Shown piece after piece: positions 403 through 61,621 of a DNA stretch of 61,621 nt (the first letter of the stretch is position 1; each line of letters begins with the position of its first letter). Source of the DNA: a virus. The position numbers were made by a program, and so were the translations under genes. The notes under the pieces were generated by a model, which saw only the letters and a list, made by a program, of their open reading frames with translations, was not told where the DNA came from and did not search any database. The DNA lies in the IMG/VR virus record IMGVR_UViG_3300048930_000318, positions 1-61,621 of that record. One strand, 5' to 3'.

Positions 403-1071
403 CTACACCTCTTCTGGCTTCAACATCAAAGCATACACACGCATACGCTCGTAGGCTTGATTGAGCAGAAGGTAGATGTATTGACGGCTATACCCCAAAG
501 CCTCACCTATCGACTTTTCATCCATCCCCTTGAAGTATTTCATTTCCACAGTTTTTCTCTGCATGTGAGGTAAGCACCGCAAGCACTGGCTTACCGTGCG
601 CTTATCCTCGAAAGTGGCGTAGTGATCCTCTCGTCGATCCTCTTCTCCTTGAGATACGTTCGCTATGAAATTCTCAGGATCATGGAAACTGTACCGCTTC
701 TTTCTGGTGAAGTAGTCCTTTGGGAGTGTGGCGCTATAACACATCCGACTCTCGTACTCACGCAACATTCTCACCACATACATTGTAGCAATATGCCCAA
801 AGTATCCGCGTTTCCGATCCCACTTCGGCCAAGCAAGCAGTAGCGCCAAGGCTACCTCTTGCTGCACGTCTGCGTAGTGTGCGCCGTTTGTATGGAAACG
901 AAGACGGAACTTGAAGAGGTAGGTATAACGTCGGATCACCTGTTCACGCACAGAATCGGGGAGATCAGTAGGTGCGATACTCAGATCATACTTCTCTATG
1001 ATCTCCTTCTCCAGCCGTATGTCAAACAGCCGCAGGATAGTCGCTGTATTGTTTGGTAATGGTTTCTTCAT
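403..1071 (-). CDS. Sigma-70-family-like RNA polymerase sigma factor
   Basis: A 222-residue protein with the layout of a small sigma factor. Residues about 66-104 (YADVQQEVALALLLAWPKWD followed by an aromatic/basic helix) resemble region 2, which binds core polymerase and the -10 element. Residues about 170-212 form a region-4-like helix-turn-helix (MKYFKGMDEKSIGEALGYS, then QYIYLLLNQAYERMR) of the kind that reads a -35 element. The middle is highly charged and lacks a clear region 3. By family it should redirect host RNA polymerase to phage promoters; the repeated non-host promoter elements in this window are candidate targets (inference). It ends a leftward gene run. A sigma-like HTH protein with another role cannot be excluded. 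Confidence 0.75.
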   Translation of the reverse strand: MKKPLPNNTATILRLFDIRLEKEIIEKYDLSIAPTDLPDSVREQVIRRYTYLFKFRLRFHTNGAHYADVQQEVALALLLAWPKWDRKRGYFGHIATMYVVRMLREYESRMCYSATLPKDYFTRKKRYSFHDPENFIANVSQGEEDRREDHYATFEDKRTVSQCLRCLPHMQRKTVEMKYFKGMDEKSIGEALGYSRQYIYLLLNQAYERMRVYALMLKPEEV

Positions 1072-3878: not shown

Positions 3879-3992
3879 AGCGATCTCCTTATTATGATCT
3901 GTTGGTGTGTGTACGGTGTGGTGGGTGGTGGGGTGCGTCTTGTGATGCAGGGGTGTGGCTAGACGTGACAATACTGGCATAACGTGCAGTAT

Positions 3993-4176
3993 AACTGTTT
4001 CACCTTACTCTACCAAGGTCATGCTGGTTGTAGTCCATTTTCTTACAAGATTCTGTTTTTTCGTGATCCACCCTCTCTATAGGATCATTAAGTGGAGGGT
4101 GGCGCACCTAAAGACCTTGGTAGAGTAAGGAGATCTGGATCTACTGCTAGTCTATTCAGTCGTGGATCAGGTTGTT
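3993..4176. repeat. Promoter-like repeat element, copy A
   Basis: One of three long, closely similar copies (others at about 24890-25075 and 54345-54490), plus shorter and inverted pieces at 24541-24870. In this copy an 18-bp perfect inverted repeat (4003-4020 with 4113-4130, containing CTACCAAGGTC) encloses a smaller one (CCACCCTC/GAGGGTGG, 4068-4075 with 4095-4102). The right end carries GGATCTACTGCTA and CAGTCGTGGATCA, shared with the other copies. It lies upstream of a leftward transcription unit. Confidence 0.8.
4087..4126 (-). promoter_or_regulatory. Candidate phage-specific promoter (copy A), leftward
   Basis: On the minus strand, the box CTCTACCAAGGTCTTT ends 16 bp before a -10-like CTTAAT (4087-4092). 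The same box-to-hexamer spacing occurs in copy B and, with a perfect TATAAT, in copy C and at 24666-24671. It points toward the gene starting at 3878. Confidence 0.45.
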
Positions 4177-4786: not shown

Positions 4787-4817
4787 AAAAAAGGCTGCTA
4801 AGCAAAGCCTAGCAGCC
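4787..4817 (-). terminator. Intrinsic terminator after the reductase gene
   Basis: On the minus strand, the stem GGCTGCTA/TAGCAGCC (4810-4817 with 4793-4800) with an inner GC/GC pair is followed by six T (4792-4787). It lies 24 nt past the stop codon of the reductase gene. Confidence 0.85.
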
Positions 4818-4841
4818 CTATCCACTCTCACCAAGATCAGA

Positions 4842-12248: not shown

Positions 12249-13548
12249 TGTCTTCCATCCTTCGGATCAAAGTGGAGATCCTGTTTTTTGCATAGGCAAA
12301 CCGTGTGGGATCGGATTCGATGCCTATCACTTTTCTGTTTAGCTTTGTTGCTTCATATACCGTAAAGCCTACATTTGCAAAGGGATCAAGGATCGTGTGG
12401 TATGCCGCACTCATATCCTTGATAATATCGCGCAGGTATGCTGTAGGTGGGCATCTTGGATGTACTACACCGTCAACCCAACCTTTTGAGCGGTACTGCC
12501 CGTGATTGGGTAGGTTCTGCGATGGGTTGTAGGTATAGTTGTAGTGCTGACACCCACGCACCATGTAGATCATACTGTTTTTGTAGTCTTTACGGGCTTT
12601 TTTTCTTCCGAGGTTCTTGAACTCAAGACAGGCATGGAAGCCCTCTCGAATAAATAGCCCCGCTTTCTGCATAGCCGCCTTGTACTCGTAGGCGGTATCA
12701 ATATGATCACACAACACAACAACCGTACCCCTTACGGCAAGGTATGGTACGATCTTCTCGATCCAGTCTGTTTTGATGTCAGGCGTGGGGTAGGTGAGAA
12801 CAAGCCCCACCGATCTCTCAGGTAGATGGGTCTTGAGGATCTGTGTGTACTCTCCGTTATACACCCTTGTCATTTCACTGCGCTTCACGAGATCCTTACC
12901 TGATCCAACTGTGCGTTGGATGCGTTTCTTCTCATATTGAAACTGCGCCTTTTTCTCTTTGACAAGGCGGATAGCCTCGCGCACAAGGTAGTTTCTCTCT
13001 GCGGTAGAGACAGGTTGACGTTTGATCTTCTCTCTGATCTCGTCTGGGAGGTTCGCAGGTTCCATAAGGCGCTTGATTGTGTTAGGTGATACGTCACGCG
13101 CCTTTGCCATAGCTTGCACAAACTGAGGTACGAGACCTGCTTCGATGGAGTCCTTGTTCTCTTCCTCGTAAGCCTTCTTGCGTAGGGCTAGGGCTTCTGC
13201 GAGTTCGAGGGTATCAAAGTCCTTACGAAAGACGTTCTCAGCGATCTGTAGATCGAGAAGGTGTGTCTTGTCGTCAGGCTCTACAACCAAGCATTTGACC
13301 TTGATACCAAGTTGCTTACAGGCTAGGCGGCGTCTGCGGCCCGTCACGACGATATACATAGTGCGATCTTGGACTTTTCGTTGCATGACTGTGATCGGTT
13401 GGATCTGTCCATCTTTTTTGATGGACTCTTTCAGCCCCTCAATATCGCCGTAGTCTGTGCGGTCATGTGTTCCCCTGATCGTGACGATCTCGTCGGGGTC
13501 TAGGTCAAGGACGACACTATCTTTGGGGATTAGGTTCTGCCGTGTCAT
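12121..13548 (-). CDS. ParB-like domain fused to a DNA methyltransferase domain
   Basis: 475 residues. Residues about 1-190 are ParB/Srx-like: GQIQPITV, TGRRRRLACKQLG (70-80) and QIAENVFRKDFD are the standard motifs, followed by a KorB-like helical part. Residues about 225-430 have an N4/N6 methyltransferase fold, with LDPFANVGFTVYEATKLNRK (386-405) as SAM-binding motif I. The expected catalytic (D/N/S)PP(Y/W) reads TYPTPD (252-257), so activity may be altered. Such fusions are common in phages and are thought to place methylation at ParB-recognised DNA. The acidic tail (430-475) overlaps the RuvC-like gene. Confidence 0.85.
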   Translation of the reverse strand: MTRQNLIPKDSVVLDLDPDEIVTIRGTHDRTDYGDIEGLKESIKKDGQIQPITVMQRKVQDRTMYIVVTGRRRRLACKQLGIKVKCLVVEPDDKTHLLDLQIAENVFRKDFDTLELAEALALRKKAYEEENKDSIEAGLVPQFVQAMAKARDVSPNTIKRLMEPANLPDEIREKIKRQPVSTAERNYLVREAIRLVKEKKAQFQYEKKRIQRTVGSGKDLVKRSEMTRVYNGEYTQILKTHLPERSVGLVLTYPTPDIKTDWIEKIVPYLAVRGTVVVLCDHIDTAYEYKAAMQKAGLFIREGFHACLEFKNLGRKKARKDYKNSMIYMVRGCQHYNYTYNPSQNLPNHGQYRSKGWVDGVVHPRCPPTAYLRDIIKDMSAAYHTILDPFANVGFTVYEATKLNRKVIGIESDPTRFAYAKNRISTLIRRMEDNESTEDLDNTGEEPEDGRYDREEDDEIKRDTEGDPPEGTQET

Positions 13549-16102: not shown

Positions 16103-17250
16103 AGTGGCTCGATCTCCTTCCAAACCTTCTCGCCTTGTTGTGTTGACGAGGTTATGTATTTTTCAAGTAGGGTGTCTGGGTTGGATAGCTGTTCGGGTGT
16201 GGGCGCTATATCAAATTCTCTCTGCTTGTTTTGCTTGTGGATCGGTGAGAGTTTGACAGCCAAAGCACCGAGGTTCTTCAACCAAGAGACAAAGGCAGAC
16301 CAGTCGATCTCTGCATCGGTAAGGCGGATCACACGGACGATCTTACCGTAGGTTAGAAACTGTGTGCAATTTTGATAGGTTCGAGCATACTCAAGGAGAT
16401 CTTCGGTTGTCTGGATCTCTGCGGGGATCTCTACCGTTTTGAACAGTCGAGGTTGTAACGTGGTTTGGATCAGGTGTTCCCCGTAGGCGTTTCGAGAATA
16501 GATAACAGAGGGGTTAGCCTCTTCGCCGAACGAGAGGGGCATACAAGATCCGAGGCACAGGTGATCGTGTTCTTTGATGTACTGAAACTTGTGGATATGA
16601 CCGCTGATTGCGGGGTACGGCCAGTCATACACAAAGTCAGCCCCCTTGTATGGGAGTTCTTGCCCGTTGATGTTTGCACCTTTTGGGTTAAGGTGCGTGA
16701 AGGCGATAGAAACAGGTAGATCGTCGTTGAATGCGGTGTTTGTAAGGTATCCACCTGAGTCCAGTTCGGACTGGACATCGCAGACGTACTCGTCCCAAGA
16801 CTTATAGATACTCGGTGACGGGTGAGGTAAGAACAGGCAAGAGTCGATCAGTCTTGGTCGTTCGAGGATCTTCACTTTTTTGAAGGGGTACGCCGCATAT
16901 AGGCTCAAGGCTGAGTGTTCTCTTGATGTTTTGCCGTAAGCAAATGCGTCGTGGTTCCCTACCAAGATATACAAGGGGATACCTACGGACTCCCAAGCCA
17001 CAAGGAAGTCCAAGAAGATCAGTTGATCTGCTACTTCTGGCTCTGGTGTATCGAACACGTCTCCAAGATGGACAGCGAAGTGATAGCCGCCGCCTTGTGC
17101 TTGGAATAGGAACTCGTACAGCCTCTCTTCGATATGCTTGGACAGACTATACCCCGCAGACTTCTTGCCGAGGTGTGTATCTCCGATGCAGATGAAATTG
17201 GGTGAAGTTGTAGGCTTTCTCGGTGAAGGTGTGGATGTTGCGACTCTCAT
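16075..17250 (-). CDS. SbcD/Mre11-like recombination nuclease (T4 gp47-like)
   Basis: 391 residues with all calcineurin-type metallophosphoesterase motifs in order: DTHLG (24-28), GDVFD (63-67), GNHD (98-101), FTHLNPKG (about 190) and SGHIH (about 217-221). These bind two metal ions for exo- and endonuclease cleavage. The partner ATPase is the gp46-like protein at 13554-15287. The N-terminal 17 residues are Ser/Thr/Pro-rich, unusual for the family. The ATG overlaps the RecA stop codon (ATGA), indicating coupled translation of recombination functions. Confidence 0.9.
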   Translation of the reverse strand: MRVATSTPSPRKPTTSPNFICIGDTHLGKKSAGYSLSKHIEERLYEFLFQAQGGGYHFAVHLGDVFDTPEPEVADQLIFLDFLVAWESVGIPLYILVGNHDAFAYGKTSREHSALSLYAAYPFKKVKILERPRLIDSCLFLPHPSPSIYKSWDEYVCDVQSELDSGGYLTNTAFNDDLPVSIAFTHLNPKGANINGQELPYKGADFVYDWPYPAISGHIHKFQYIKEHDHLCLGSCMPLSFGEEANPSVIYSRNAYGEHLIQTTLQPRLFKTVEIPAEIQTTEDLLEYARTYQNCTQFLTYGKIVRVIRLTDAEIDWSAFVSWLKNLGALAVKLSPIHKQNKQREFDIAPTPEQLSNPDTLLEKYITSSTQQGEKVWKEIEPLWEEIKTSV

Positions 17251-18155
17251 TCATCCACCTCTTCGGCTTCTGTCTTGGAGGATGCGGATCGCAAACCTTT
17301 CTCAAAGTCGATGATCAGATCACAAGACCCAAATGGTGTATTGAGTCTGTTCTTCTCTGCGGTGACGCGAACTTTGAGACCTGCAACATACTTCTTTTTG
17401 TCCTTGGTGCGGTACACCTTACCGAGATGTTCAACACGCAGACGGAGAGAGGCATAGAATCCGATACGCTTACCGCCTACAGGCTTCGCCTTGGACTTGA
17501 AGCCTTGGGGTGAGACCTCACCCTCGTTCACTTGGTTGATAAGGTACAGAAGGTGGGGTGAACGTGGGATTAGTGCGCCAATGATCCGTAAAGCCTTGGA
17601 GATCAGTTGTGCGCGCATTTGCGCTTGGCGATCTTGGTCGAAAGTGGCGTTTGCGACCTCTGCATTTGTGGAGAGACCCGCTACCGAGTCCACCACGATC
17701 ACCATCGGGATCTCTTTGTTTGCCTCGATCAGTTTGTGCATCGTCTCGAAGACTTCCTCAACGATGTTCGAGTCCACGACCAGTAGGTTATCCGTGTTGA
17801 TCCCATAGGAGAGTGCGAGTGTACGAGAAAACTCACCTTCTGCGGTGAAGAGTACACCCATACCACCGCGCTCTTGCACCTTGGCAATAGCGTTGTAGGC
17901 AAGTGTCGTTTTACCCGTCTGAGACTCCCCAAACACTTCGATGATGCGACCCATAGGGTATCCGCGTTTGTGAGCCTCAAGAACTTCGTCAAGTTCTTCG
18001 ATACCTGTAGGTAGAAAGTGTTGAGGCTCACCTAGATCGCTTTCTGTACCTGAGAATACAGCCTCGTTTGAGAGAGCCTTTCTTGCGACTGCGGCTAGGC
18101 TTTGGATTGCGTTCTTTGTGTCGAAAGTGGCGGCTGTATTGGTCTTCTTAGCCAT
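17247..18155 (-). CDS. RecA-like recombinase
   Basis: About 302 residues (start MAKKTNT at 18155, with AAGGA 9 nt upstream). The RecA core shows Walker A GESQTGKTT (about 76-84), Walker B MVIVVDS (about 151-157), and QVNEGEVSPQGFKSKAKPVGG matching the L2 loop and following segment. It should polymerise on ssDNA and drive strand invasion, paired with the gp46/47-like nuclease and the phage SSB. It is closer to bacterial RecA than to T4 UvsX in length and motifs, but lacks RecA's full C-terminal domain; the tail is short and acidic (SKTEAEEVDE). It overlaps thyX by 8 nt. Confidence 0.9.
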   Translation of the reverse strand: MAKKTNTAATFDTKNAIQSLAAVARKALSNEAVFSGTESDLGEPQHFLPTGIEELDEVLEAHKRGYPMGRIIEVFGESQTGKTTLAYNAIAKVQERGGMGVLFTAEGEFSRTLALSYGINTDNLLVVDSNIVEEVFETMHKLIEANKEIPMVIVVDSVAGLSTNAEVANATFDQDRQAQMRAQLISKALRIIGALIPRSPHLLYLINQVNEGEVSPQGFKSKAKPVGGKRIGFYASLRLRVEHLGKVYRTKDKKKYVAGLKVRVTAEKNRLNTPFGSCDLIIDFEKGLRSASSKTEAEEVDE

Positions 18156-19134
18156 TATCTTCATCCTTGTTTTCTCGAAAGAATTTGTCGAGTATATCCT
18201 CGTTGGCGGAGTCGTGGATCTGCTTCTCTTCTGCTACCTGCTCCATCATCTGAGCAAAAAGACCAAGGCGCTCCATCTTTTTGATAAGGTCTTGGGTCTT
18301 TGTGCTTTTCTGGTTCCAAGAGAGCGCGCGATCCAAAACACCCATCTTTTTTAGGTGACTGGAAAGATGTTCGCTTGCCATCATTTTTGAGATCAGGACT
18401 GTTTCATCGAAGGAAAGTTTGAGAGCCTTGAGGGTGTGGTTCTCGAAAGCGGCCCAAGTGTAGGGAACCCAGAGACGGACGATCTCTTTGATGGCTTCGG
18501 CGTAGTCTCGGATCTCCTTCTGGGCGTGTGAGTCGAGGCGTTGTTGAAGGAAGCCAAGAAGGTTACGGAGATCCATCTTCCACACGATCTCGGTGTAGTT
18601 GGAGACGGGGAGTACCATACGGGCCATCTCTCTCGCGGTATCGTAGTGCAGAAGATCGTTGTAGGCGTTATGGGAGGCTTCCAGAGACTCGCTATAGGTA
18701 AGGTCTTGCTTCTCTCTCAGTTCGTCTCCTGCGTAGTGGGAGACCTGTTTATTTGGACTTGTGTTAACCCTCCACTCTTCTGGGTGGTAGTAGAGATCCA
18801 CAGCCTCGGAGTAGCGCAAGGACATCTCATTCAGTTTTGCCGTGCGATGCCGAACCCACTGGCGCATAATGAAGATCGGCAGTCGGATGTTGAACTTGAT
18901 ACTACACATCTCAAAAGGAGATGCGTGACCATTCCGCCAGAGGTAGTCAATCAAAGCCCCCGTGTCTTGGCGTTTGGTCGTACCCTTTCCGTAGGACATA
19001 CGGGCGGCATCCTCGATGTCCCGATCCTCACCCATCCAATCCAATAAACGGATATAGCCTACATCGTGGATCTTGATCTCCACGCCACGTAAGGCTTCAA
19101 GTGTATGTTCTTTGATCTGTTCGACTCGGATCAT
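18148..19134 (-). CDS. thyX: FAD-dependent thymidylate synthase
   Basis: 328 residues. The ThyX signature RHR-x7-S is present as RHRTAKLNEMS (95-105), followed by LRYSE. LPVSNYTEIVWKMDLRNLLG, then QQRLDSHAQKEIRDYA, matches the nucleotide/FAD-binding C-terminal half. It makes dTMP from dUMP using methylene-tetrahydrofolate and NADPH. The last 80 residues extend beyond a typical ThyX (about 220-250 residues) as a charged helical tail of unknown role. It works with the reductase in phage DNA precursor synthesis. Confidence 0.93.
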   Translation of the reverse strand: MIRVEQIKEHTLEALRGVEIKIHDVGYIRLLDWMGEDRDIEDAARMSYGKGTTKRQDTGALIDYLWRNGHASPFEMCSIKFNIRLPIFIMRQWVRHRTAKLNEMSLRYSEAVDLYYHPEEWRVNTSPNKQVSHYAGDELREKQDLTYSESLEASHNAYNDLLHYDTAREMARMVLPVSNYTEIVWKMDLRNLLGFLQQRLDSHAQKEIRDYAEAIKEIVRLWVPYTWAAFENHTLKALKLSFDETVLISKMMASEHLSSHLKKMGVLDRALSWNQKSTKTQDLIKKMERLGLFAQMMEQVAEEKQIHDSANEDILDKFFRENKDEDNG

Positions 19135-22220: not shown

Positions 22221-22871
22221 TTACCCTTTCTGGTTTGTTGCTTCACGGTAGGCGATCATACCAAGGATAATACTCCTATACAATTCGATTTCTGTATCAG
22301 ATAGTCCCTCTTCTTTTGCGATTTTTTCTCCATGCTCTTTCCACACCTCAAAGGTGTGAACTTGACACCCCACAGAGATATGAGAGTCAGAGCAGGTGAT
22401 GATATAGCGGTACAAATTAGCATACATAACAGACTCGGTACACAACATATCACCAAAGACACAAGCATTATCATAGACACGAGCCTTACCAGAGACACGG
22501 GCATTATCACATACACTGGCATCACCATAAACACAGGCATTATCATAGACACTGGCATTATCACATACACGAGCCTTACCAAAGACACAGGCATAACCAA
22601 AGACACGAGCATTACCAAAAACAAGCCCATCATCATAGACATAGGCATTATCATAGACACAGGCATCACCAAAGACACGAGCAGCACCAAAGACACGGGC
22701 ATCACCATAGACACAGGCATTATCAAAGATAAAGCAATTGCCATCATGTGAGAGGTTATATTCTTTCTCGATCCAACCTCCCACAAGACCGTCTGAGATT
22801 CGGCGGACTCTCTTTAGAGTCCTATCGAAGATTTGCTTCTCTTCACCTGTAAATTCATATTTTCGTGTCAC
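22221..22871 (-). CDS. Hexapeptide-repeat (beta-helix) protein, copy 1
   Basis: About 216 residues, starting at GTG (22871): the paralogue at 42072 begins with the same TRKYEFTGEEK sequence at an ATG. Residues about 50-150 are roughly 16 tandem six-residue units of the form (V-F/Y-G/D-N/D-A-R/S/C), the pattern of a left-handed beta helix. The N-terminal cap (RRISDGLVGGWIEKEYNLSH) and C-terminal domain (IITCSDSHISVGCQVHTFEV, then WKEHGEKIAKEE) are conserved with copy 2. Function unknown; such folds occur in scaffolding and acyltransferase-like proteins, but no active site is visible. Confidence 0.8.
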   Translation of the reverse strand: MTRKYEFTGEEKQIFDRTLKRVRRISDGLVGGWIEKEYNLSHDGNCFIFDNACVYGDARVFGAARVFGDACVYDNAYVYDDGLVFGNARVFGYACVFGKARVCDNASVYDNACVYGDASVCDNARVSGKARVYDNACVFGDMLCTESVMYANLYRYIITCSDSHISVGCQVHTFEVWKEHGEKIAKEEGLSDTEIELYRSIILGMIAYREATNQKG

Positions 22872-22893
22872 GGTTTTACCCTTTCTGGTTTGC

Positions 22894-22910
22894 GTGATCT
22901 TCTTGATCAC
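22894..22910 (-). promoter_or_regulatory. Leader hairpin/operator GTGATC-N5-GATCAC
   Basis: Same 6+5+6 hairpin as at 3133-3149 and 42032-42048, 15 nt downstream of the -10 at 22925-22930. Confidence 0.5.
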
Positions 22911-23185: not shown

Positions 23186-24433
23186 CTATTCTGCTTTGTA
23201 TGTCTTGTCACCGTCACCAAAGCGCAGAGGCATAATAAGGGCTTTGATGTTTAGACAAGAACACAGCATAGGGCCAAAGGGATAGGCGGGTAGGTCGATA
23301 GTCACAACGTCTGTACGAGAGAGGCCCTTCAAGAAGGTTTGAAGTAAGCGTGGATCAAAAGCAAAAACAAGGTCTCCTCCTTTGCGGTATTCTTGCTCAA
23401 GAAGCGTAACAGGAACATCCACCTTGAATGAACGAGCCTTGTCCACATAGTTCACAAGAAATCGGGGGGGCTTTCCAACGGAGAGATCCAACCACACACC
23501 GTGATTTCTTGGGACTTGGCTACAGACGTGTGTGAGCGGTTCGAGAAGGGCAGACACAAGACCTTTGATACGAACGTGCGTATTGCCTCCCCTCGGCCAG
23601 ACGTGGTGTGTATCAAAGCCAGATCGTCGTTCTGTATCAAAGTGTGCAGAGATGGGGGCATTAGAGACTTGTACGGACAGACGTACAAGATCCTGCCCGT
23701 TGTCATTGGCAAGTCTGATATGGAAAATTGTTTCATCTTTCTTACTGAGAGTGCAGATTGCTTTGACGATCCTGTCAGAGATCGTTGGTCGGTAGCGCAA
23801 AACGTCCATCACCAGACCGATCTCTTTACCGTCAAGATAAGCGTCCGTGTCAGAGGATACTGCCGTTAAGGTCTTTGCATCCGTTGAGAGCGCAGCTACA
23901 CGGCAATTCAAAACATCCAAGATAACCCGATCCATGTTAGGCTTCATACCTAAAGTCGCAGGGAGGCTATCAAGAGCCTTGGACAGAGTACCTTCTTGGA
24001 ATCGGACAAGAATAGCTTCACCCTCTGGCTTCACGTTTGGGAAGAGATCGTAATCGTGTGTCAACCACTCTTCACAATGGACAGCGCCAGAGATTGCAAG
24101 ACGAAGTACAGAGTAGTCAAGCGTAAGAGAACCATCTGTGTGCGAGAAGGAGATCTCTTCTGTTGGTGTGAAGCCTGTGGAGAGTGTGCGGATCAGATCT
24201 TGGGTATAGATACCAAGGTCTTTTTGTAGTGGTGTTTGGATTGTAGCGTGGCAGGTTATGGTGATCTGTTCTTTGTCAGGCGTGTTGGCGTAGAACTCTA
24301 CGGTATCCTTGAGGGTTCGTATCCGCACCAGAAGGAAACGTACAGAGGTGGACTTCTTGACACAGAAGTCTTTGAGGGTAGCGAGTACCGTTTTGAGGTG
24401 ACTGTACTTGATGGAGAAGTTTGGGTAGAGCAT
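23186..24433 (-). CDS. DnaN-like DNA sliding clamp
   Basis: 415 residues in three repeats of the clamp fold. Landmarks: a middle-domain LDVLNCRVAALSTDAKTLTA that matches the (L)RLVATDGHRLA-type strand of bacterial beta clamps, an acidic/LxxxLPAT segment before it, and the C-terminus ALIMPLRF, equivalent to the YVIMPMRL end that forms the partner-binding pocket. It would tether the phage polymerase and other clamp-binding proteins. It is the first gene of the leftward unit, facing the divergent control region. Sequence is far from any clamp I can quote, so the call rests on motifs and length. Confidence 0.75.
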   Translation of the reverse strand: MLYPNFSIKYSHLKTVLATLKDFCVKKSTSVRFLLVRIRTLKDTVEFYANTPDKEQITITCHATIQTPLQKDLGIYTQDLIRTLSTGFTPTEEISFSHTDGSLTLDYSVLRLAISGAVHCEEWLTHDYDLFPNVKPEGEAILVRFQEGTLSKALDSLPATLGMKPNMDRVILDVLNCRVAALSTDAKTLTAVSSDTDAYLDGKEIGLVMDVLRYRPTISDRIVKAICTLSKKDETIFHIRLANDNGQDLVRLSVQVSNAPISAHFDTERRSGFDTHHVWPRGGNTHVRIKGLVSALLEPLTHVCSQVPRNHGVWLDLSVGKPPRFLVNYVDKARSFKVDVPVTLLEQEYRKGGDLVFAFDPRLLQTFLKGLSRTDVVTIDLPAYPFGPMLCSCLNIKALIMPLRFGDGDKTYKAE

Positions 24434-24564
24434 TTTGTGTCCTTTGTCTATTGTGGGGTGAACAACGTGTATAGAATAGGTAGAGTGTTTGCTTTTGGGT
24501 TGTCAACAAGATCGTGTGTAGTTTTTATACTACACTTGAACATATTAGCAGTAGATCCAGATCG

Positions 24565-24608
24565 TCTTACTCTACCAAGGTCTTGCTGGATCTAGTGTAG
24601 TGTATAGT
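24565..24608 (+). promoter_or_regulatory. Candidate phage-specific promoter, rightward 1
   Basis: Box CTCTACCAAGGTCTTGC (ending 24586), 16 bp, TATAGT (24603-24608). Confidence 0.45.
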
Positions 24609-24630
24609 TTTTGCCACAACTGTTTCACCC

Positions 24631-24671
24631 CACTCTACCAAGGTCTTGCGATGCTCCACCCTCCCTATAAT
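24631..24671 (+). promoter_or_regulatory. Candidate phage-specific promoter, rightward 2
   Basis: Box CTCTACCAAGGTCTTGC (ending 24649), 16 bp, perfect TATAAT (24666-24671). It is the mirror image of copy C at 54 kb. It points toward the primase/helicase gene. Confidence 0.55.
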
Positions 24672-24889
24672 GATCCTATAGAAAGGGGTGGATCGTGTAA
24701 GATCCAAAACTTGTAGGAATAAGTATGATCGTTGTGTGTAGTTTAGCTGTTTCTACTTACAGCGCCAAGGTCATGCGGTGTGTAAGATAAGCAAAATGTA
24801 TTCAGCACTCTTGTATAACAACACGCCAGATCCAGATCCCCCTACTCTACCAAGGTCTTGCTGGAAATCTTATACAGGCATGAAAAGTA

Positions 24890-25075
24890 CAACCTGTTTC
24901 ACCTTAGAGCGCCAAGGTCATGCGCCTTGTAGTCCATTTTCTTACAGGATCTTGTTTGTACCGTGATCCACCCTCTCTATAGGATCATTAAGGGGAGGGT
25001 GGAGCACCTCAAGACCTTGGTAGAGTAAGGTGATATGGATCTACTGCTAATCTATTCAGTCGTGGATCAGGGTTT
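24890..25075. repeat. Promoter-like repeat element, copy B
   Basis: Closely similar to copy A over about 180 bp: left box AGCGCCAAGGTCATGC, TTTTCTTACAGGATCTTG, hairpin core (24968-25002 region), right box on the minus strand (25012-25026), then GGATCTACTGCTAATC and CAGTCGTGGATCA. The minus-strand promoter inside it has CTTAAT (24987-24992) 16 bp from the box. Confidence 0.8.
24987..25026 (-). promoter_or_regulatory. Candidate phage-specific promoter (copy B), leftward
   Basis: Minus-strand box CTCTACCAAGGTCTTG, 16 bp, CTTAAT (24987-24992). It would give a leftward transcript with a leader of over 500 nt before the clamp gene, overlapping the rightward promoters at 24.57-24.67 kb. Confidence 0.4.
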
Positions 25076-25129: not shown

Positions 25130-25167
25130 AAAAAAGGGTAGGCCCAACTTTCGCCAGACCTACCCTT
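25130..25167 (-). terminator. Intrinsic terminator, leftward
   Basis: On the minus strand, AAGGGTAGG/CCTACCCTT stem (about 25159-25167 with 25134-25142), then TTTTTT. It would stop leftward transcription entering the divergent region from the right. Confidence 0.7.
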
Positions 25168-25193
25168 CCACATAAAAAAACCAAACATACTTC

Positions 25194-25222: not shown

Positions 25223-25287
25223 CTAGGAGAACAAAAGGTGTGCAAGAGACATACCGACGAAGAAATCCACCACCAACCAAAAAAAAA

Positions 25288-25318
25288 GCCCCAAAGTGTT
25301 GCGACACGGGGCTTTTTT
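25288..25318 (+). terminator. Intrinsic terminator in the leader of the primase/helicase gene
   Basis: Stem GCCCC/GGGGC (25288-25292 with 25308-25312) with inner GTGT/ACAC, then six T (25313-25318); A-rich on the other side, so it may work both ways. It lies about 60 nt after the predicted transcript start and 13 nt before the likely ATG, suggesting attenuation. Confidence 0.75.
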
Positions 25319-25330
25319 GAGAGCTTACCG

Positions 25331-28300
25331 ATGAAAAAAATAAGAGCCTACCGCCTACGTTGTCAAGAGATCGTTGCAAAAAAGTTTGTGCTATCCCCTC
25401 AAGGATACCCGCAAAAGACCGATAAAGCCCACCCCGCTACCTTTAACTTCTCTCCCCTGTTCTGGAATTCCATTGAAGGTCTCTTCGGTATCCTCTCCAC
25501 GTTACGCTGCGATCCACACTCCCTGATCATCCGTGGAAACCTCAAAGAAGGCTTCTCCCCAAACAATCAGTACCGACGCAAGATCGACAAGCCAGACAAG
25601 GCGGGTTATGTTGCTACCGTTGAAGAGGTAGATCGTGATTGGGTCTGCATTGACATCGACAACTACCGCTGCAAAACACAAGTCGATCCACACAACAAGG
25701 AAAGCCTCTTAGAAGCCGCTAGAGAGACCCTGTTTGCACACCTACCACAAGACCTTCACAACACTTCTTTTGTTGTCCAATGGTCTAATAGCGCCTTCCT
25801 AGACAGCCAGACCTACACTTTCGACCCACACAAAGCAAAAGCACACTTCTGGATCATGCTTGATCGTGAAGTCTGTGGTGAGTCTCTTCGCCCTTGGTTG
25901 AAGGCTATCGGGGCAGACTCCGCCCTCGCCGATACCATCCAACAGCACTACACCTCAGACCCCGTTTGTGAAGGCTTTACCCACCCACTACCATCAGAAC
26001 ACCGCGTCTTTCTTGTCAAAGGTGAACGTGACACACTCGACACCTCGAAGATCACCACACACGAGATCTTCACAACCGAACAGTACAAACAACGCCTCGA
26101 ACAAGAAGCCCAACGCAAGATACAAGAAGCAAAAGCACGTGAAGAGAGACACGTAAAGCAAGAGCAAGAGCAACGTATCACATACGGCGTAGAAGGCTCC
26201 TATACCTCACGCAAAGCCCTAGCAGAAAGCATCTTGAATACCGCAATCAAGAAGATCATGTCTGCGCGAGACGGCAACAGAGGCAAAACGATCTTTGGGC
26301 AGTCCAAGTGGATCGCTTCCATCGCCTCAGAACATCGCAATGGACTCCCGATCTCCTATGCCCAGACCATGCTAGAGAGCGCAGCCGTCAACCTCGCAGG
26401 TCAATCTGCCGCAGATCTACGCGACTACCGCGTATCCTACAAAAACGGCTGGTCGGAAGGTGAATCGTCACCCCAACTTCTCGATCTCAAAGTGGAAAAC
26501 AAACCACAGAAGATCACCAAAGCCCAAAAGTCCAAAGAGCAAAAGGAGAAAGCAGCACAAGAGAAGATCGCCAACTCTATCTTCTACCACTACGCAAACC
26601 TCTCCGCAGCCCAAGAACCTTGCGGATTCAGCCCCACACCGCACTACATGGCCCCTCTCCATGTTGCCGCAGGGATCACCGCAGTGCGCGCATCTCTTGG
26701 GACTGGAAAAACAGAGGTGGCCAAAGCCCTCTGCAAAAAGTACAACTCCGTCCTTTGGTTGGCCCACCGCGTAGCCCTCACACGCAATACCCAAGAACGC
26801 CTCAATGAAGGTGAAACCCAAGCCTTCTCGCTCTACCTCGACAAAGAAGGCAAACTCGTAGAGTCCAAGTTGATCGTATGTGTGGACTCGATCTCTCGCG
26901 TAGCTTCACAGCATGATCTTGTTGTGATTGACGAAGCAGATCAGGTGCTTCGCTCTGTGATCAAACGATCCAAGAACCGCCAAGCCAGTGATGCGATCTT
27001 CCATAAAATGATGGGTCTCACTATCGCAGGTGGTGGGGCAAAGCAGATCCTTCTACTCTCCGCCGATCTCTGTGATACCACACTCAAAGCCTACGAAATT
27101 CTGTTTGGTAAAGAAGTTACAAACCGTATCGATCACAACTGGCATCACCCTGACGAGACGTGGAATTTCCACGAGACAATTGACCTTTGGAGGCTCCAAC
27201 TCTCCGAGGATCTTGAGAACAACAAGAAGATCTTTGGCTTCTTTGCCTCGCAAGCCACACTGATCCAGTACGAAGCGTGGATCAAGCAACATTTCCCTAG
27301 CAAAAAGGTCGTAGCCATCCACCGAGAAGCCGAAGATGAAGACCGTGACACCCTCGAAAGCGTCAACAAACTCTGGAAAGATGCAGACGTGGTGTTCGTC
27401 ACAACATCGGCAGGTAGCGGCGTATCCTACGACGTAAAGGACGATTTCGATGCTGTCTATGTTAATGGCTATCATGCCCCTCTTGACTTCCCTGCAAGCG
27501 AGTATCTACAAGGCGCTTGCCGCGTTCGTCACCCTCGAAGCCGAACCATTCAAGCCTATATCATTGAGTCTGAAAGACCTCTCAAGTCTCTCGAAGCGAT
27601 GCACGGTGAGTTTGAACGCCGTGAAGGTGAAACGCTACGCATCCTCCGATCCATCGGTCAAGTTGAAGAGATCCGAGGTGCAGTCACAACAACCTCACAG
27701 ATCTTTGAGAACGCTTGGCTACTCTCGATGCTACAAGGGGAGGAAAGATCGCACTTTGCCGCAAAGTGGATCTGTGAAACACTCCTAGATCGCCAGATCA
27801 AGATCACCTACACAACAGGTACTGGCGACCCAAAAAAGAGCAAAAAGATCCAAGGTGAGATGCAGGTTGCGAAAGAGGCTGTATTCATCAAAGAGATCGG
27901 ACGCATCCTTGAGGCAAAGGATCTTACACCCGCAGAAGCCGAACCTCTCCGTGGTCAAGAACTCAAGAAGGCCCAACAACTTGAGATCAAAAAGCACGAA
28001 GCAGCGATGTTCTACAGTCAACACGAAGACAAACACACTGCACCAGAAGCACCTACCGAAGAGATCCTTGTGTGGGATAACAAAGGTAAGGGCCGCAAGA
28101 CAATCCGATCCCTTGTGACTTCCGCAGCTTTTCATTCTGCCCGTGACTACAATATCTTCCAAGATCAACACGATCTTGTCTTCGATACATCGGACAAAGA
28201 AGCCAAGGTGTACCCCAAAGTCCGTTCAAAGATGGATGCTTCGCACTACTACTTACGATCCAAGCAAGGATGCTTGTTGTTGGCGGTAGCGTGTAAGGAG

Positions 28301-28948
28301 ATCCCCGCCTTCCACAAACTTTTGCTTGAATTCTTTCCAAATGCACTACCTTCTGATCTAAGCCATGTCACAACAGAAGAGGTGATGAATTGCTACTTCC
28401 GTGATGTTCGGGCCTATGGAAAGGTATTTGGGACTCGCGTATCCGAACACAACAATTTCGCATCAAACCTCGGCCATATCTGCAAAGATTTCGGTATTGT
28501 CCGTACCTGTCTGCGTTCTGGCGGTGATGCCCGTGATTACATCTTTGAAGAGAAAGCGACACGATACGCCCTTGAGCAAGCGACCTACGAAAGAAACCGA
28601 TACATGACCACAATTGACAAATGGAAAAACGGACACGGACTCGTTGATACAAGCGAGTTTGACCGCGAAGAGGGCGAGACGCAAGAAGAACCGAAGCAAG
28701 TGCATCTGTTCGCGCAGTACCCCCAACAACCAGCCACACAACAAAAAGTGCAAGCAAACGTACAACCTACACAACAAGATGATCTTGCCCGTCATGTTGG
28801 GTTTTATATGTCAGTCTATATGAACGCTGGAAAACAGGGGCCATTTGACGCCTTTGTCTTCACCAAGAAAAAACTCAACATCCAAGACCTCGACTACGCT
28901 TGGGCCTTGGATTGCAAGGCTGCTTTTGACAACTCTTTCTGGGGATAA
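25331..28948 (+). CDS. Primase-polymerase/helicase fusion (AEP + superfamily 2 helicase)
   Basis: About 1205 residues from ATG 25331 (GAGAG upstream). A longer frame from GTG 25238, which has its own AGGAG, would read through a terminator hairpin. N-terminal part: an archaeo-eukaryotic-type primase pattern, with metal-binding CIDIDNY (about 107-113) and KAHFWIML (about 170-177). Middle: helicase with Walker A ASLGTGKTE (about 455-463), DEAD box LVVIDEAD (about 530-536), and the later motif FVTTSAGSGVSYDVKDDFDA with QGACRVRHPRS, as in herpes-type origin-binding helicases. The C-terminal third is charged and unassigned. Likely role: initiation of phage replication, as primer synthesis plus unwinding. 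First gene of the rightward unit. Confidence 0.82.
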   Translation: MKKIRAYRLRCQEIVAKKFVLSPQGYPQKTDKAHPATFNFSPLFWNSIEGLFGILSTLRCDPHSLIIRGNLKEGFSPNNQYRRKIDKPDKAGYVATVEEVDRDWVCIDIDNYRCKTQVDPHNKESLLEAARETLFAHLPQDLHNTSFVVQWSNSAFLDSQTYTFDPHKAKAHFWIMLDREVCGESLRPWLKAIGADSALADTIQQHYTSDPVCEGFTHPLPSEHRVFLVKGERDTLDTSKITTHEIFTTEQYKQRLEQEAQRKIQEAKAREERHVKQEQEQRITYGVEGSYTSRKALAESILNTAIKKIMSARDGNRGKTIFGQSKWIASIASEHRNGLPISYAQTMLESAAVNLAGQSAADLRDYRVSYKNGWSEGESSPQLLDLKVENKPQKITKAQKSKEQKEKAAQEKIANSIFYHYANLSAAQEPCGFSPTPHYMAPLHVAAGITAVRASLGTGKTEVAKALCKKYNSVLWLAHRVALTRNTQERLNEGETQAFSLYLDKEGKLVESKLIVCVDSISRVASQHDLVVIDEADQVLRSVIKRSKNRQASDAIFHKMMGLTIAGGGAKQILLLSADLCDTTLKAYEILFGKEVTNRIDHNWHHPDETWNFHETIDLWRLQLSEDLENNKKIFGFFASQATLIQYEAWIKQHFPSKKVVAIHREAEDEDRDTLESVNKLWKDADVVFVTTSAGSGVSYDVKDDFDAVYVNGYHAPLDFPASEYLQGACRVRHPRSRTIQAYIIESERPLKSLEAMHGEFERREGETLRILRSIGQVEEIRGAVTTTSQIFENAWLLSMLQGEERSHFAAKWICETLLDRQIKITYTTGTGDPKKSKKIQGEMQVAKEAVFIKEIGRILEAKDLTPAEAEPLRGQELKKAQQLEIKKHEAAMFYSQHEDKHTAPEAPTEEILVWDNKGKGRKTIRSLVTSAAFHSARDYNIFQDQHDLVFDTSDKEAKVYPKVRSKMDASHYYLRSKQGCLLLAVACKEIPAFHKLLLEFFPNALPSDLSHVTTEEVMNCYFRDVRAYGKVFGTRVSEHNNFASNLGHICKDFGIVRTCLRSGGDARDYIFEEKATRYALEQATYERNRYMTTIDKWKNGHGLVDTSEFDREEGETQEEPKQVHLFAQYPQQPATQQKVQANVQPTQQDDLARHVGFYMSVYMNAGKQGPFDAFVFTKKKLNIQDLDYAWALDCKAAFDNSFWG

Positions 28949-28949
28949 T

Positions 28950-29714
28950 ATGCAAACGATAGAACTCTGCTTAGGTGATTGCTTTGACTATCTACCACAG
29001 ATCCCAAGTGGTTCGGTAGATATGATCCTCGCAGATCTTCCCTATGGTACAACCCGCTGCTCTTGGGACGTGGTACTACCCTTTGAAGATCTTTGGAGAG
29101 AGTACAACCGTGTTCTCAAAGAGAGCGGTGCGGTTGTACTCTTTGGTACAGAGCCGTTTTCGTCAGCCCTACGCCTCAGTAATATCAAAGACTACCGCTA
29201 TGATATTTACTGGCAGAAAGATCGGGGTGCTAACTTCCTCTTTGGTAATCGTATGCCCCTCAAGGTTATCGAAACGATCTCTGTGTTTTACAAGAAACAG
29301 CCAACATACAACCCCCAGAAGAGAGAAAACCCCAAGGGGCCGTCAAAAAGACACCTAAGCCGCTATGTGAAGCCCTCCGATAACGTAAAGGATGTCATGG
29401 GGGATTCTTGGAAATTGCAATCTTGGGAAGCGGGGCAGAAGTACGAACCAGATAAACTACTGCCCACCTCTATTGAGTATTGCGCGAGAGAGCAAAAAGG
29501 TAAGGTTCATCCAACGCAAAAGCCTGTGGCCCTGCTCGAACGCCTTATCCTTACCTACACAAACGAGGGTGAGACTGTCCTTGATAACTGTATGGGATCG
29601 GGGTCAACAGGTGTAGCCGCACTCAAGACAAAGAGATCCTTCATCGGTATGGAGAAGGAAGAAAAATACTACATGATCGCACAGGATCGCATCAACGGGG
29701 TAACACCTACATGA
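28950..29714 (+). CDS. N6-adenine (or N4-cytosine) DNA methyltransferase
   Basis: About 254 residues from ATG 28950, 1 nt after the previous stop; the longer frame overlaps that gene. Beta-class order: catalytic motif IV MILADLPYGTTRCSWD near residue 25-40, then VHPTQKPVALLERLILTYTN and motif I DNCMGSGSTGVAAL near the C-terminus. DLPY replaces the canonical DPPY, a common variant in phage methylases. It uses S-adenosylmethionine; the target sequence is unknown. It may protect phage DNA from host restriction. Its last residues (GVTPT) and stop lie in a direct repeat shared with the next junction. Confidence 0.88.
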   Translation: MQTIELCLGDCFDYLPQIPSGSVDMILADLPYGTTRCSWDVVLPFEDLWREYNRVLKESGAVVLFGTEPFSSALRLSNIKDYRYDIYWQKDRGANFLFGNRMPLKVIETISVFYKKQPTYNPQKRENPKGPSKRHLSRYVKPSDNVKDVMGDSWKLQSWEAGQKYEPDKLLPTSIEYCAREQKGKVHPTQKPVALLERLILTYTNEGETVLDNCMGSGSTGVAALKTKRSFIGMEKEEKYYMIAQDRINGVTPT

Positions 29715-29737
29715 AGCCTATCACTATCGAACAACAA
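29703..29737. repeat. Direct repeat flanking a methylase gene (left copy)
   Basis: About 35 bp matching 30275-30309 at all but two or three positions. It spans the end of one gene (VTPT-stop) and the first eight codons of the next (MKPITIEQ). The distance between copies is 572 bp. Confidence 0.85.
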
Positions 29738-30286
29738 AAATTTAAGTGCATAGTGGCTGATCCGCCTTGGGAGGTTAAGCGTGGATCGCCGCAGGGAAGA
29801 CCATTTGGCACACAAATGGCCAGTCAAAATTTACCGTACCCCACCATGTCTGTAGATGAAATTTGCCAATTGCCCGTCCAAGACCTCGCAGACAAAGACG
29901 CGCACCTCTATCTTTGGACTATAAATCGCTATATTGAAGATGCGTATCTTGTGGCCCGTGCTTGGGGTTTCAAGCCTAGTACGTTATTGGTGTGGGCCAA
30001 GACCCCTAAAGGTCTCGGCTTAGGTGGGACTTACGCCTTATCCTCCGAATTCTGCTTATTTTCAAGGCGCGGAACGCTACCCGCGAAGAGAAGAGAAGAA
30101 ACAAACTGGTGGCATTGGAAGAGAAGTAAGCATAGTCAAAAGCCCGAAGAATTCCAAGATATGATCGAGTCTGTCAGTCAAGGCCCGTATCTTGAACTTT
30201 TTGCAAGAAGAAAGCGAGAAGGTTGGTCTGTATGGGGAAACGAAGTTGAATGTGATGTCTTGTTAACCGAGGTGACACCTACATGA
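29711..30286 (+). CDS. MT-A70-family methyltransferase, second copy
   Basis: 191 residues with the MT-A70 core: CIVADPPWEVKRG, LYLWTINRYIEDAYLVARAW, TLLVWAKTPKGLG, SKHSQKPEEFQ and LELFARRKREGWSVWGNEVE. Adenine N6 methylation is expected; the substrate is unknown. Its first residues (MKPITIEQ) are identical to those of the next gene, and its end repeats the end of the preceding gene. This suggests that the reading frame was inserted or duplicated as a unit between two direct repeats. Confidence 0.87.
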   Translation: MKPITIEQQKFKCIVADPPWEVKRGSPQGRPFGTQMASQNLPYPTMSVDEICQLPVQDLADKDAHLYLWTINRYIEDAYLVARAWGFKPSTLLVWAKTPKGLGLGGTYALSSEFCLFSRRGTLPAKRREETNWWHWKRSKHSQKPEEFQDMIESVSQGPYLELFARRKREGWSVWGNEVECDVLLTEVTPT

Positions 30287-30309
30287 AGCCTATCACCATA
30301 GAACAACTC
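30275..30309. repeat. Direct repeat flanking a methylase gene (right copy)
   Basis: Partner of 29703-29737; 22 consecutive identical bases plus a near-identical continuation. Confidence 0.85.
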
Positions 30310-54344: not shown

Positions 54345-54490
54345 ATTCAGTAGTCCGTTTTCTTACAGGATCTTGTTTGTCTGCGATCCACCCTCTCTAT
54401 AGGATCATTATAGGGAGGGTGGAGCCTCGCAAGACCTTGGTAGAGTAGGGAGATCTGGATCTACTGCTAATCTATTCAGTCGTGGATCGT
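54345..54490. repeat. Promoter-like repeat element, copy C
   Basis: Same core as copies A and B: TTTTCTTACAGGATCTTG, hairpin CCACCCTCTCTATA-N7-TATAGGGAGGGTGG (14-bp stem, one G-U, about 54388-54422), minus-strand box (54429-54445), GGATCTACTGCTAATC and CAGTCGTGGATC. The left box present in A and B is missing. Confidence 0.8.
54407..54445 (-). promoter_or_regulatory. Candidate phage-specific promoter (copy C), leftward
   Basis: Minus-strand box CTCTACCAAGGTCTTGC (54429-54445), 16 bp, perfect TATAAT (54407-54412). About 100 bp upstream of the tail hub gene. Confidence 0.55.
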
Positions 54491-59183: not shown

Positions 59184-61565
59184 TTAGATCGCCTCGCGGA
59201 TACCCGCTTTGGACACGGTGATATTGAACTTCTCAACGGTATCGGCAAGACGGAGTTCGAGAGAAGCGTTCATCTCTCCTGCCGCCTCTGTTGCAGAGGT
59301 GTTGTTTTCGCCGTCAATCTTGAGTTGGATAGCGTCTTGGAGGCTATCGCCCTTGATTGCGCGTTTCTTGTACTCTGCGTCAAAGTAGATGTTGAACACA
59401 GGACGGAGAAGGATACGCTCTTGGGCATCGTTGATCGAAAACACGATGAAGTCAAAAGACTCCATCAGCACGTTGATGTAGTGATTCATCAACTCGCGGT
59501 GTTGGCAGAAGATGTAACGTGTCGTTTCCGAGGGGATACGAGCGCCCCAGATGATGTACTGGCCCTTGTGCTTGCGAACGTATTGGATACCTGCGGGGTT
59601 AAGGATCTCACCGTTGAGTTGGCGATCTCCTGTTGGCAAGTCAACAACAGTCGAAAGGGTAACACCTTCACCTGCGGCAACTTTGTGATAACCGCCGAAG
59701 TTACGGGCCATCATAGCCTCACGACCATGCACCATACCCATGTTCGGGACGGTCTTTTGACGGCGTGGACGCAGAGGATCAGAGACTTTCACAAAAGAAG
59801 GAAAGATCACCTTTGTGAACATATCCTTGCCAAGTGTATCTTGAACGTAGGTCTTGGCCGAGACTTCATCGGTGACAGAGTTCTTGATCTCATAACGGTA
59901 CTGGTAAGCACGGCTACGAGCGTAGGCTGCTCCTGCTTTTTGCACAAGGACTGCGTTCGAGTCGCTGAGTTCTGCGGTGATGTTGGGGTTTCCAAGACGG
60001 ACTTGACCAAAGCCACCACCACGAAGTTTGTTGAATTCGCTGTTGGAAATGTCCCAAACAGCAAGGTAGTCGTCAACATCCAAGTTTGCGATCCCGTCGT
60101 AGCCACCTTCCAATTGCTGCTTGTATTCAAGGCGAACATCAACAGTAGAAGCCAAGGTATCGCCAAGGGTAAGATCTCCGCTTGCGATAGAGACGGTAGA
60201 GACGGTGTTGGCATCGATCAGATAACCTTGGGCATTAGCACCAGACTCCGACTCCAAGAAGATCTTGCCGTTCTTGAGTTCGGATGGGATGAAAGCCAAG
60301 CAAGTAACGTCGGTGTATTCGTTGGTGACAGCGGTTGCGGTTGTATAGGTAAAGCCAAAAGACTTCTTGTTGTCAGCGGCATAGGCTACCGTATCTGTGA
60401 TCGCTGCAAATGTGTGATGCTGCATACGATCTCGGCTTGTGACAGCCAAGACGGGGCCAGAACTGTTTGAAGTGGTGATGCGGAGTTTGTCACGCACACA
60501 CTCCGAACCGAAGGTGAAGGTGGCGATAGTGTTATCGTTTGTACCAACACCCGCTGCACCATACTTCTCCACGATGAACATAGCCGAACCAAAGGTGATC
60601 GTCTTTGCGCCAATAGAGGCTTTTACAAGGCTCTTGGCGTAGAAGTTTGCGGGGCGATTGGCCGCTGTAGGTGTACCTGTAAAGAGGTTGGTTACGGTAA
60701 TGTAGTGGTTTGATGTATCTTCATTGATGATCGGCAAGAAGTAGTTGTCCGAGTCTTCATCCATCGAAAGATCTTCCCACTTCTTGACAAGCGCGCCATC
60801 AAGATAGCAGAACAAGCCAAACTCAGTCGATGGATTCTGGACACCGTTACGGATCTCAACAGAGAGATGCTTACCACGACCATACACGTCCGTATTTGCC
60901 ACTTCAACGATCAATTCAGCATCACCCGCAGATCCGCCAAAGTCTGTTTCAGCCGTGGATTCTGCGGATAGTGTCAAGGTTGCCTGTGTCGCACCAGAAA
61001 GAGACTCGGTGTTGGAGAGGATCTTGTATGTTGTATCCGACTCTTTTACATAGACCGTACCGCCCTTGAACTGGTCTTTTTTGCAGGTAAAGGTAGCGGG
61101 TAGGCGGATAGTGGTCTCTGAGGTGATGTCAAAAGCAGGATCGGAAGGATCGGCTTCATCCATCGAAAGGACATAGACTTGGCGACGACCACCCCATCCA
61201 CCGCCGTTTTTGGCGTCAACACGGAGTACAGCTTGACGTGCGGCTGTACGGTCGTAGAAGGTGAGGGTAGCTTTGGTTTCGTCACCAGCGGTCAGGCGTT
61301 GGAGGATAAGCGCACCCGCACCTTGACCCATATCGAAAAAGTCACGGCAGACGTTAGGAAGAACCGAGTCTTCGATATATCCGCCTGTTTTGGTGATCAG
61401 GTCTTCTTTGCTATAGCAGTAGATCAACTCGCCAACAGGCCCACGCTCTAGGATACCAGCGTAACCTGTAACACCCAAGGCGCTCTGTTGAATCGTAGGT
61501 TGTGCAGCCTTCTCACGGACGGTTACACCCGCATCGTTGACAGGCCCAAAATATAGTGTGGACAT
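59184..61565 (-). CDS. Contractile tail sheath protein
   Basis: 793 residues. Starts MSTLYFGPVNDAGVTVRE, typical of sheath N-termini that reach the neighbouring subunit (an EVD/xxGVxxxE opening). Contains TGYAGILERGPVGELIYCYS and, near the end, GIQYVRKHKGQYIIWGARIP, with SETTRYIFCQHRELMNHYIN, the conserved sheath C-terminal domain (WGxRTL-like). Larger than the minimal sheath; residues about 150-480 hold inserted surface domains. It contracts to drive the tube through the envelope. Confidence 0.92.
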   Translation of the reverse strand: MSTLYFGPVNDAGVTVREKAAQPTIQQSALGVTGYAGILERGPVGELIYCYSKEDLITKTGGYIEDSVLPNVCRDFFDMGQGAGALILQRLTAGDETKATLTFYDRTAARQAVLRVDAKNGGGWGGRRQVYVLSMDEADPSDPAFDITSETTIRLPATFTCKKDQFKGGTVYVKESDTTYKILSNTESLSGATQATLTLSAESTAETDFGGSAGDAELIVEVANTDVYGRGKHLSVEIRNGVQNPSTEFGLFCYLDGALVKKWEDLSMDEDSDNYFLPIINEDTSNHYITVTNLFTGTPTAANRPANFYAKSLVKASIGAKTITFGSAMFIVEKYGAAGVGTNDNTIATFTFGSECVRDKLRITTSNSSGPVLAVTSRDRMQHHTFAAITDTVAYAADNKKSFGFTYTTATAVTNEYTDVTCLAFIPSELKNGKIFLESESGANAQGYLIDANTVSTVSIASGDLTLGDTLASTVDVRLEYKQQLEGGYDGIANLDVDDYLAVWDISNSEFNKLRGGGFGQVRLGNPNITAELSDSNAVLVQKAGAAYARSRAYQYRYEIKNSVTDEVSAKTYVQDTLGKDMFTKVIFPSFVKVSDPLRPRRQKTVPNMGMVHGREAMMARNFGGYHKVAAGEGVTLSTVVDLPTGDRQLNGEILNPAGIQYVRKHKGQYIIWGARIPSETTRYIFCQHRELMNHYINVLMESFDFIVFSINDAQERILLRPVFNIYFDAEYKKRAIKGDSLQDAIQLKIDGENNTSATEAAGEMNASLELRLADTVEKFNITVSKAGIREAI

Positions 61566-61574
61566 TCTTATCTC

Positions 61575-61621
61575 CTATCCAACGTCGTATTCACAGTCAA
61601 CACGAGAGGCTTGGATTGTTC
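61575..61621 (-). CDS. End of an upstream gene (partial)
   Basis: The last 15 codons of a minus-strand frame that continues beyond the window, ending TIQASRVDCEYDVG with a TAG that overlaps the sheath ribosome site. Another frame is also open (ending TTLDRR), so the assignment is tentative. In such operons a tail terminator or neck protein gene is expected here. Confidence 0.35.
   Translation of the reverse strand, partial: TIQASRVDCEYDVG

Follow-up and report, generated by a model that had tools for sequence, protein, structure and literature searches.

A dispersed palindromic cassette as a candidate phage-specific promoter in four control regions of an uncultured tailed phage

Why is one non-coding sequence repeated in several distant control regions of the same phage genome, and what does it do there? 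This question is raised by the intergenic region at 24.5-25.1 kb of the window, which is the whole stretch of 61,621 nucleotides analysed here (positions 1-61,621 of the IMG/VR virus record IMGVR_UViG_3300048930_000318). An earlier note made from the letters of this window had described palindromic elements in three control regions and had suggested that they are either a phage-specific class of promoters or promoters fused with a processing hairpin.

Distribution of the element in the joined genome

The last 127 bases of the window (61495..61621) are identical (100 %, inverted) to the end of IMGVR_UViG_3300048930_000354, which is the pattern expected of adjacent contigs from an assembly with k=127. 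The tail sheath gene and its neighbour at 61568-62803, which begins within the overlap and continues into contig 3300048930_000354, have homologues in the same order in the relatives G002 and G003. Based on the overlap and the agreeing gene order, the two contigs were treated as a single phage with a minimum length of 91,166 bp. The joined contigs represent a tailed phage of about 91 kb, an uncultured virus of bacteria, whose terminase, portal, protease and capsid-type structural protein are encoded on the adjoining contig.

The recurrence of the elements in the three regions named by the earlier note is real. Mechanical repeat detection recovered direct repeats at 4030-4168, 24930-25068 and 54350-54488, with 79-87 % identity to the reference copy, and inverted pieces of them at 24537-24687. 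Matches to the box with up to three mismatches number 26, compared to 4.9 +/- 1.8 in shuffled sequences (largest value 11), and those with up to two mismatches lie nearly all within the three named regions, with one exception at 8951. The family is larger than described, since three further copies, D1-D3, are located on the adjoining contig directly upstream of the terminase gene. The joined sequence thus holds seven core copies (A, B, Bp, C and D1-D3) in four control regions, and every one of them is intergenic.

In IMG/VR (2.9 million viral contigs), pattern scans for the box, core and end motif identified contig 3300048930_000354 as the sole other carrier, and a search of the element DNA against 50,697 phage records gave no match. 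The single match in a scan of bacterial and archaeal genomes was set aside as chance by eye, as it lies in apparently coding, pilin-like sequence. The Rfam scan of the window reported nothing but a tRNA. Among the protein queries, the terminase returned the adjoining contig alone, the RepA-like protein and the DNA polymerase found no relatives, and the capsid protein retrieved relatives.

Copy A (3993..4168, minus strand) comprises an end motif at 4155-4168, a box at 4109-4128, CTTAAT at 4087-4092, a conserved tail at 4030-4046 and a second, inverted box at 4005-4024, and it reads leftward, towards 3189-3980. The unit behind it is a leftward set that includes a sigma-factor-like protein (403..1071, minus strand) with a region 4 and a weak region 2, which is a candidate user of the element. 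Copy C (54350..54488, minus strand; end motif 54475-54488, box 54429-54448, TATAAT 54407-54412, tail 54350-54366) also reads leftward, towards the tail gene 52812-54302 and the further tail genes of its unit. D1-D3 stand in tandem at 16203-16816 of contig 3300048930_000354, just 5' of the terminase large subunit gene (16868-18304), behind which the head genes follow.

The arrangement at 24.5-25.1 kb is more complex, with two core copies facing each other and four further boxes. The partial copy Bp (24618..24725, plus strand; box 24630-24649, TATAAT 24666-24671) reads rightward, towards the replication unit starting at 25238, which encodes a Herpes_ori_bp-type protein, a primase-helicase and a fusion of uracil-DNA glycosylase and DNA polymerase A. 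Copy B (24892..25068, minus strand) reads leftward, towards 23186-24433 and a unit of recombination, repair and nucleotide genes; it has its end motif at 25055-25068, box at 25009-25028, CTTAAT at 24987-24992, tail at 24929-24945 and a degenerate inverted box at 24904-24923. Each of the two lies about 500 bp from its gene and reads through the other. On the plus strand there are also a left arm piece (24537..24588) with a box at 24567-24586 that is followed, 16 bp on and outside the hairpin context, by TATAGT (24603-24608), a degenerate box (24757..24776) and a further box without a core (24842..24861). The five same-strand boxes of this region are spaced by 63, 127, 85 and 62 bp, near whole helical turns, and the spacings of 63 and 62 bp probably stem from one duplication.

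The earlier note had placed the elements in front of a leftward recombination unit, a rightward replication unit and a tail unit. A and C point to leftward genes, and the middle region holds the two facing copies. All seven core copies have a downstream gene of matching direction; this co-orientation is only weakly informative in this genome, and A, C and D alone count as independent. The intergenic gaps measure 861 bp (A), 804 bp (B), 316 bp (C) and 733 bp (D), taken from a gap list in which some other long gaps are missed genes.

A strong hairpin resembling an intrinsic terminator (4791..4819, minus strand) follows the ribonucleotide reductase gene about 650 bp upstream of copy A, and a leftward terminator-like hairpin with 17 pairs and a T run (25132..25169, minus strand) lies upstream of copy B. 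Such leftward terminators are expected where a new unit begins. The terminator search found no leftward one at C and none in the terminase direction at D.

Two smaller repeat groups were observed next to the copies. Three TGAACNNTTGTTAT sites on the minus strand (4188-4201, 4255-4268 and 4351-4364) are located upstream of copy A and nowhere else in the joined genome; they are operator-like, and a second regulator may act there on the sigma-bearing unit. At 54522-54603 on the plus strand, immediately before copy C, two copies each of GATCCACCATGACG and TGTAAGAAAA resemble pieces of the element.

Anatomy and conservation of the cassette

The element is a non-coding module of about 140 letters in a palindromic setting of 140-204 bp. 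Read in box direction, the full unit consists of GATCCACGACTGAA, 26 bp, the box TTACTCTACCAAGGTCWTGC, 16 bp, TATAAT or CTTAAT, GATCCTATAGAGAGGGTGGATC, a variable linker and TGTAAGAAAATGGACTAC. The end motif GATCCACGACTGAA starts 40 bp upstream of the box, and in A, B and D1 an inverted box is found about 85 bp from the first. A second GATCCACGACTGAA closes D1, which thereby forms a palindrome of 204 bp, and D2 has both ends and a single box; these two copies have perfect terminal inverted repeats of 14 bp at both ends, compared to one end only in the other copies. The distance of 26 bp between box and end motif is kept even in the far arm of D1, despite the diverged sequence in between. A parS-like half site, TGTTTCAC, was also seen in the far arms; it is not a palindrome.

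Among the six full copies, 38 of the 140 aligned columns vary, and the invariant blocks are the end motif GATCCACGACTGAA, the box TACTCTACCAAGGTC and TAATGATCCTATAGAGAGGGTGGATC. The invariant runs of 26, 15 and 14 columns exceed the expectation for scattered variable columns (top three runs, P 1e-4), and the longest of them is not terminal but internal, after the box. The four-gamete test was failed by 52 of the 91 informative column pairs, so variants have been reassorted between copies, and D1-D3 are no closer to one another than to A or B. Taken together, this indicates that the copies exchange sequence or are old.

The hexamer lies exactly 16 bp after the box in all seven core copies, which are paralogous. 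The TATAAT that the earlier note had reported at this distance was confirmed at 24666-24671 (plus strand) and 54407-54412 (minus strand), while A and B carry CTTAAT instead; overall, three of the seven core copies have TATAAT and four have CTTAAT, a four-of-six match. Of the 13 boxes in the joined sequence, six are without the core and five of these six also without a good hexamer. The remaining one, at 24567, keeps TATAGT at 16 bp in a different sequence context; five-of-six hexamer matches occur at 0.37 % of non-coding positions, corresponding to about 2 % over the six core-less boxes. A sigma-70 promoter has a TTGACA-like -35 element at 16-18 bp from TATAAT. The cassette differs in this respect, as no TTGACA-like element accompanies any of the hexamers and the sigma-70 scan reports no site there. 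The fixed hexamer spacing without such an element suggests that some factor recognises the box instead of a -35.

A promoter reading and its rivals

These observations are best explained, in our judgement, by a phage-specific promoter cassette that depends on an activator or a sigma factor, and we consider this reading probable. Here, the box TTACTCTACCAAGGTCWTGC of 15-20 bp would replace the sigma-70 -35 element and would be bound by a phage-coded activator or an alternative sigma factor. RNA polymerase would then use the TATAAT or CTTAAT 16 bp past the box and start about 7 nt after the hexamer. Proteins could also bind at the end motif GATCCACGACTGAA, at the invariant sequence that follows the hexamer and at the inverted box, at a distance of about 85 bp; these sites would make the unit palindromic and may let the bound complexes pair. 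One factor could thereby act on the leftward recombination, rightward replication and terminase units as well as on the sigma-bearing and tail-gene stretches, perhaps with a common timing, in line with the synchronisation of distant operons that the earlier note had proposed. Different timing is conceivable as well, given the two variants of the hexamer and the unequal layout of the four regions.

The constant 16-bp spacing, the clustered invariant blocks, the TATAGT behind the core-less box at 24567, the 26-bp distance kept in the far arm of D1, the intergenic placement with gene-matched direction, the leftward terminators at A and B, the sigma-like protein and the repeats of the relatives G005 and G024 were counted in favour of the promoter reading. 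Against it count the lack of a recognisable -35, the CTTAAT in four of seven copies, the six core-less boxes, the copies of region B that face each other about 500 bp from their genes, and a size and degree of palindromy beyond what a promoter requires. The promoter class proposed by the earlier note thus gains indirect backing from placement, orientation, spacing, block conservation, the terminators upstream of two copies and the analogous cassettes of relatives.

The nearest working analogue are the T4 middle promoters, in which the MotA box WWWTGCTTTA is located 12 +/- 1 bp from a -10 TATAAT (PMC2988021). At many T4 operons, a phage box stands in for the -35 ahead of the TATAAT -10 (PMC2988021), as is proposed for the cassette. 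However, the phage studied here has the box TTACTCTACCAAGGTCWTGC, a spacing of 16 bp and a palindromic setting of 140-204 bp that is not described for T4. Since box and spacing differ, the cassette is not a member of this class, and a general scan of part of the gene products gave no match to MotA or AsiA.

Chief among the alternatives is a MITE-like, non-autonomous mobile palindrome that would have spread via intergenic gaps and been homogenised by recombination, the hexamer being either incidental or a passenger. Like MITEs and REP-type palindromic repeats, the element is intergenic, multi-copy and sharply bounded, with the terminal inverted repeats of D1 and D2; the full D1 folds as DNA into one long stem (z -6.5), and the failed four-gamete pairs speak for recombination between copies. 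A different repeat array stands before the terminase in G003 and is absent from G002, although the two are 83 % identical, which would also fit a mobile element. However, no target duplication was seen by eye in the flanks of D1 and D2, no transposase was found among the part of the phage proteins that was scanned, and no copy exists elsewhere in IMG/VR or the genomes by the patterns used. The longest conserved block is internal and the orientation follows the genes, again unlike MITEs and REP-type repeats, so we consider this explanation unlikely.

Alternatively, the boxes could form an operator array, at which a phage repressor or a nucleoid-like protein silences or stops transcription in several regions. 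Stoperators, like SPBRE, are phage repressor sites that shut off or stop transcription, and operators of this type have no promoter of their own. SPBRE of phage SPbeta is a 15 bp motif bound by the repressor MrpR (PMC10516654) and resembles the element as a conserved phage-specific repeat in several promoter regions, but the cassette is a 140-bp multi-block unit that includes the hexamer. The 13 boxes, several of them without a hexamer, and their near-helical spacing in region B would suit such an array. A plain operator explains neither the constant hexamer spacing nor the invariant 26-column stretch after the box, and no repressor gene was identified; we regard this possibility as rather improbable. 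Still more doubtful are replication origin iterons, which are bound by an initiator where replication begins, with the boxes at 24.5-25.1 kb binding the adjacent helicase (25238-28948) and the other copies acting as secondary origins. The Herpes_ori_bp match of the neighbouring gene and the divergent region with its repeated boxes and dyads would be consistent with an origin, whereas the copies before terminase and tail genes are not, gene direction accounts for the turning point of the GC skew at 24 kb, and an AT-rich unwinding region was not demonstrated.

The hairpin around the hexamer that the earlier note had pointed out exists but is imperfect in most copies. Read as a 5' mRNA hairpin for processing or stability, it is favoured by copy C, where the stem reaches 13 pairs (z -5.4), while copy D3 folds no better than shuffles. 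Of the 13 pairs, followed over seven copies (six of them distinct), seven never vary and six are broken in some copy, and no pair is altered on both sides. Nearly every change is found in the left arm, where the hexamer and spacer are located, and Bp is the only copy in which the right arm departs from the constant sequence. Such uncompensated changes are expected of a conserved protein site rather than of a conserved stem. Moreover, with a start 6-8 nt past the hexamer the transcript would not include the left arm, so the proposed fusion of a promoter with a processing hairpin is not upheld, and an RNA role is the most improbable of the readings considered. The early promoters of phage N4, which are used by its virion RNA polymerase (PMC4496689), also have a hairpin overlapping the promoter, but the cassette stem shows no compensatory change. 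The largest called gene in the joined 91 kb encodes 1236 amino acids, so this possibly incomplete record contains no giant virion RNA polymerase. With both the pairing constraint and the giant polymerase gene absent from the joined sequence, an N4-type promoter is disfavoured.

The promoter reading and mobility could also be combined. A mobile or self-copying promoter cassette would have terminal repeats, a complete promoter and regulator sites, would be copied within the genome and be kept uniform by recombination; operons could then be captured by or released from one regulon, and the phage family would repeatedly invent unrelated cassettes. We offer this combination as a speculation with a low probability.

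Provided that the cassettes act as promoters, a single control module, recognisable directly from the sequence, would govern most of the major units of this phage, from replication to packaging. The element would be a ready test piece in the search for a factor recognising a long box instead of the -35, with a sigma-like protein encoded nearby, and the unrelated cassettes of some relatives would offer a way to study how phages gain and exchange regulons. The cassette would then be an unusually large and elaborate version of something already known in phages.

Repeats in relatives and further genome features

The box itself was not retrieved from relatives: a pattern search of 23 larger relative records gave scattered three-mismatch matches only and no convincing box, and according to the element profile none of eight large relatives and G003 carries the element. 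Some relatives (G005, G024, G017 and G003) have intergenic repeats of their own, for the most part immediately 5' of genes and in gene direction. The closest one, G005 (terminase 50 %, capsid 53 %), contains another repeat in seven copies, which are split five to two between the strands; each is oriented like the next gene, and most lie within 50 nt of the gene start. Its best copies show a weak TTGTAA-17-TACTAT by eye, where the promoter scanner reported none. G024 has two repeat families with four copies each, and two copies of the first carry TTGCCT-17-TATACT before a start codon. Five repeat copies lie on the 5' side of leftward genes in G017, and G003 has 130-bp repeat arrays 5' of the terminase and, inverted, at the end of the late genes. 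G012, G013 and G018 showed no dispersed non-coding repeat of comparable size, and a repeat in G020 was set aside because, on reading, it apparently consists of coding paralogues. Such private repeats are thus common to some but not all of these phages, with mutually unrelated sequences. Since they are not homologous to the element, they support the promoter reading by analogy. Mycobacteriophages likewise have phage-specific repeats that are dispersed and partly palindromic and in many cases lie close to gene starts, such as the 17-bp palindrome of cluster O (PMC4351075) and the SAS/ESAS of cluster K (PMC3203893). These are far shorter and more numerous than the cassette, and SAS are tied to translation initiation sites.

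Several other features of the genome were observed. CCGG is absent from the joined 91 kb, where trinucleotide counts predict about 180 sites, and AGCT is much rarer than predicted (55 vs 246 expected), which is likely due to the avoidance of host restriction sites. A P1-like methylation control through local GATC enrichment was dropped, as GATC is abundant genome-wide (1043 vs 901 expected from trinucleotide counts). A ParB-like N-terminal domain is fused with an N6/N4 DNA methylase at 12121-13548 (minus strand), and the fusion at 39375-41981 (plus strand) joins a uracil-DNA glycosylase-type domain with a family A DNA polymerase. A 40-bp repeat (90 %) at 29696-29735 and 30268-30307 (plus strand) lies across the starts of two neighbouring genes, one of which encodes an MT-A70 methylase. 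Finally, paralogous genes at 22221-22910 (minus strand) and 42072-42719 (plus strand) contain 18-nt repeats that are collagen-like by their period and have near-identical leaders, and the same leader occurs a third time at 5138-5229 of the adjoining contig.
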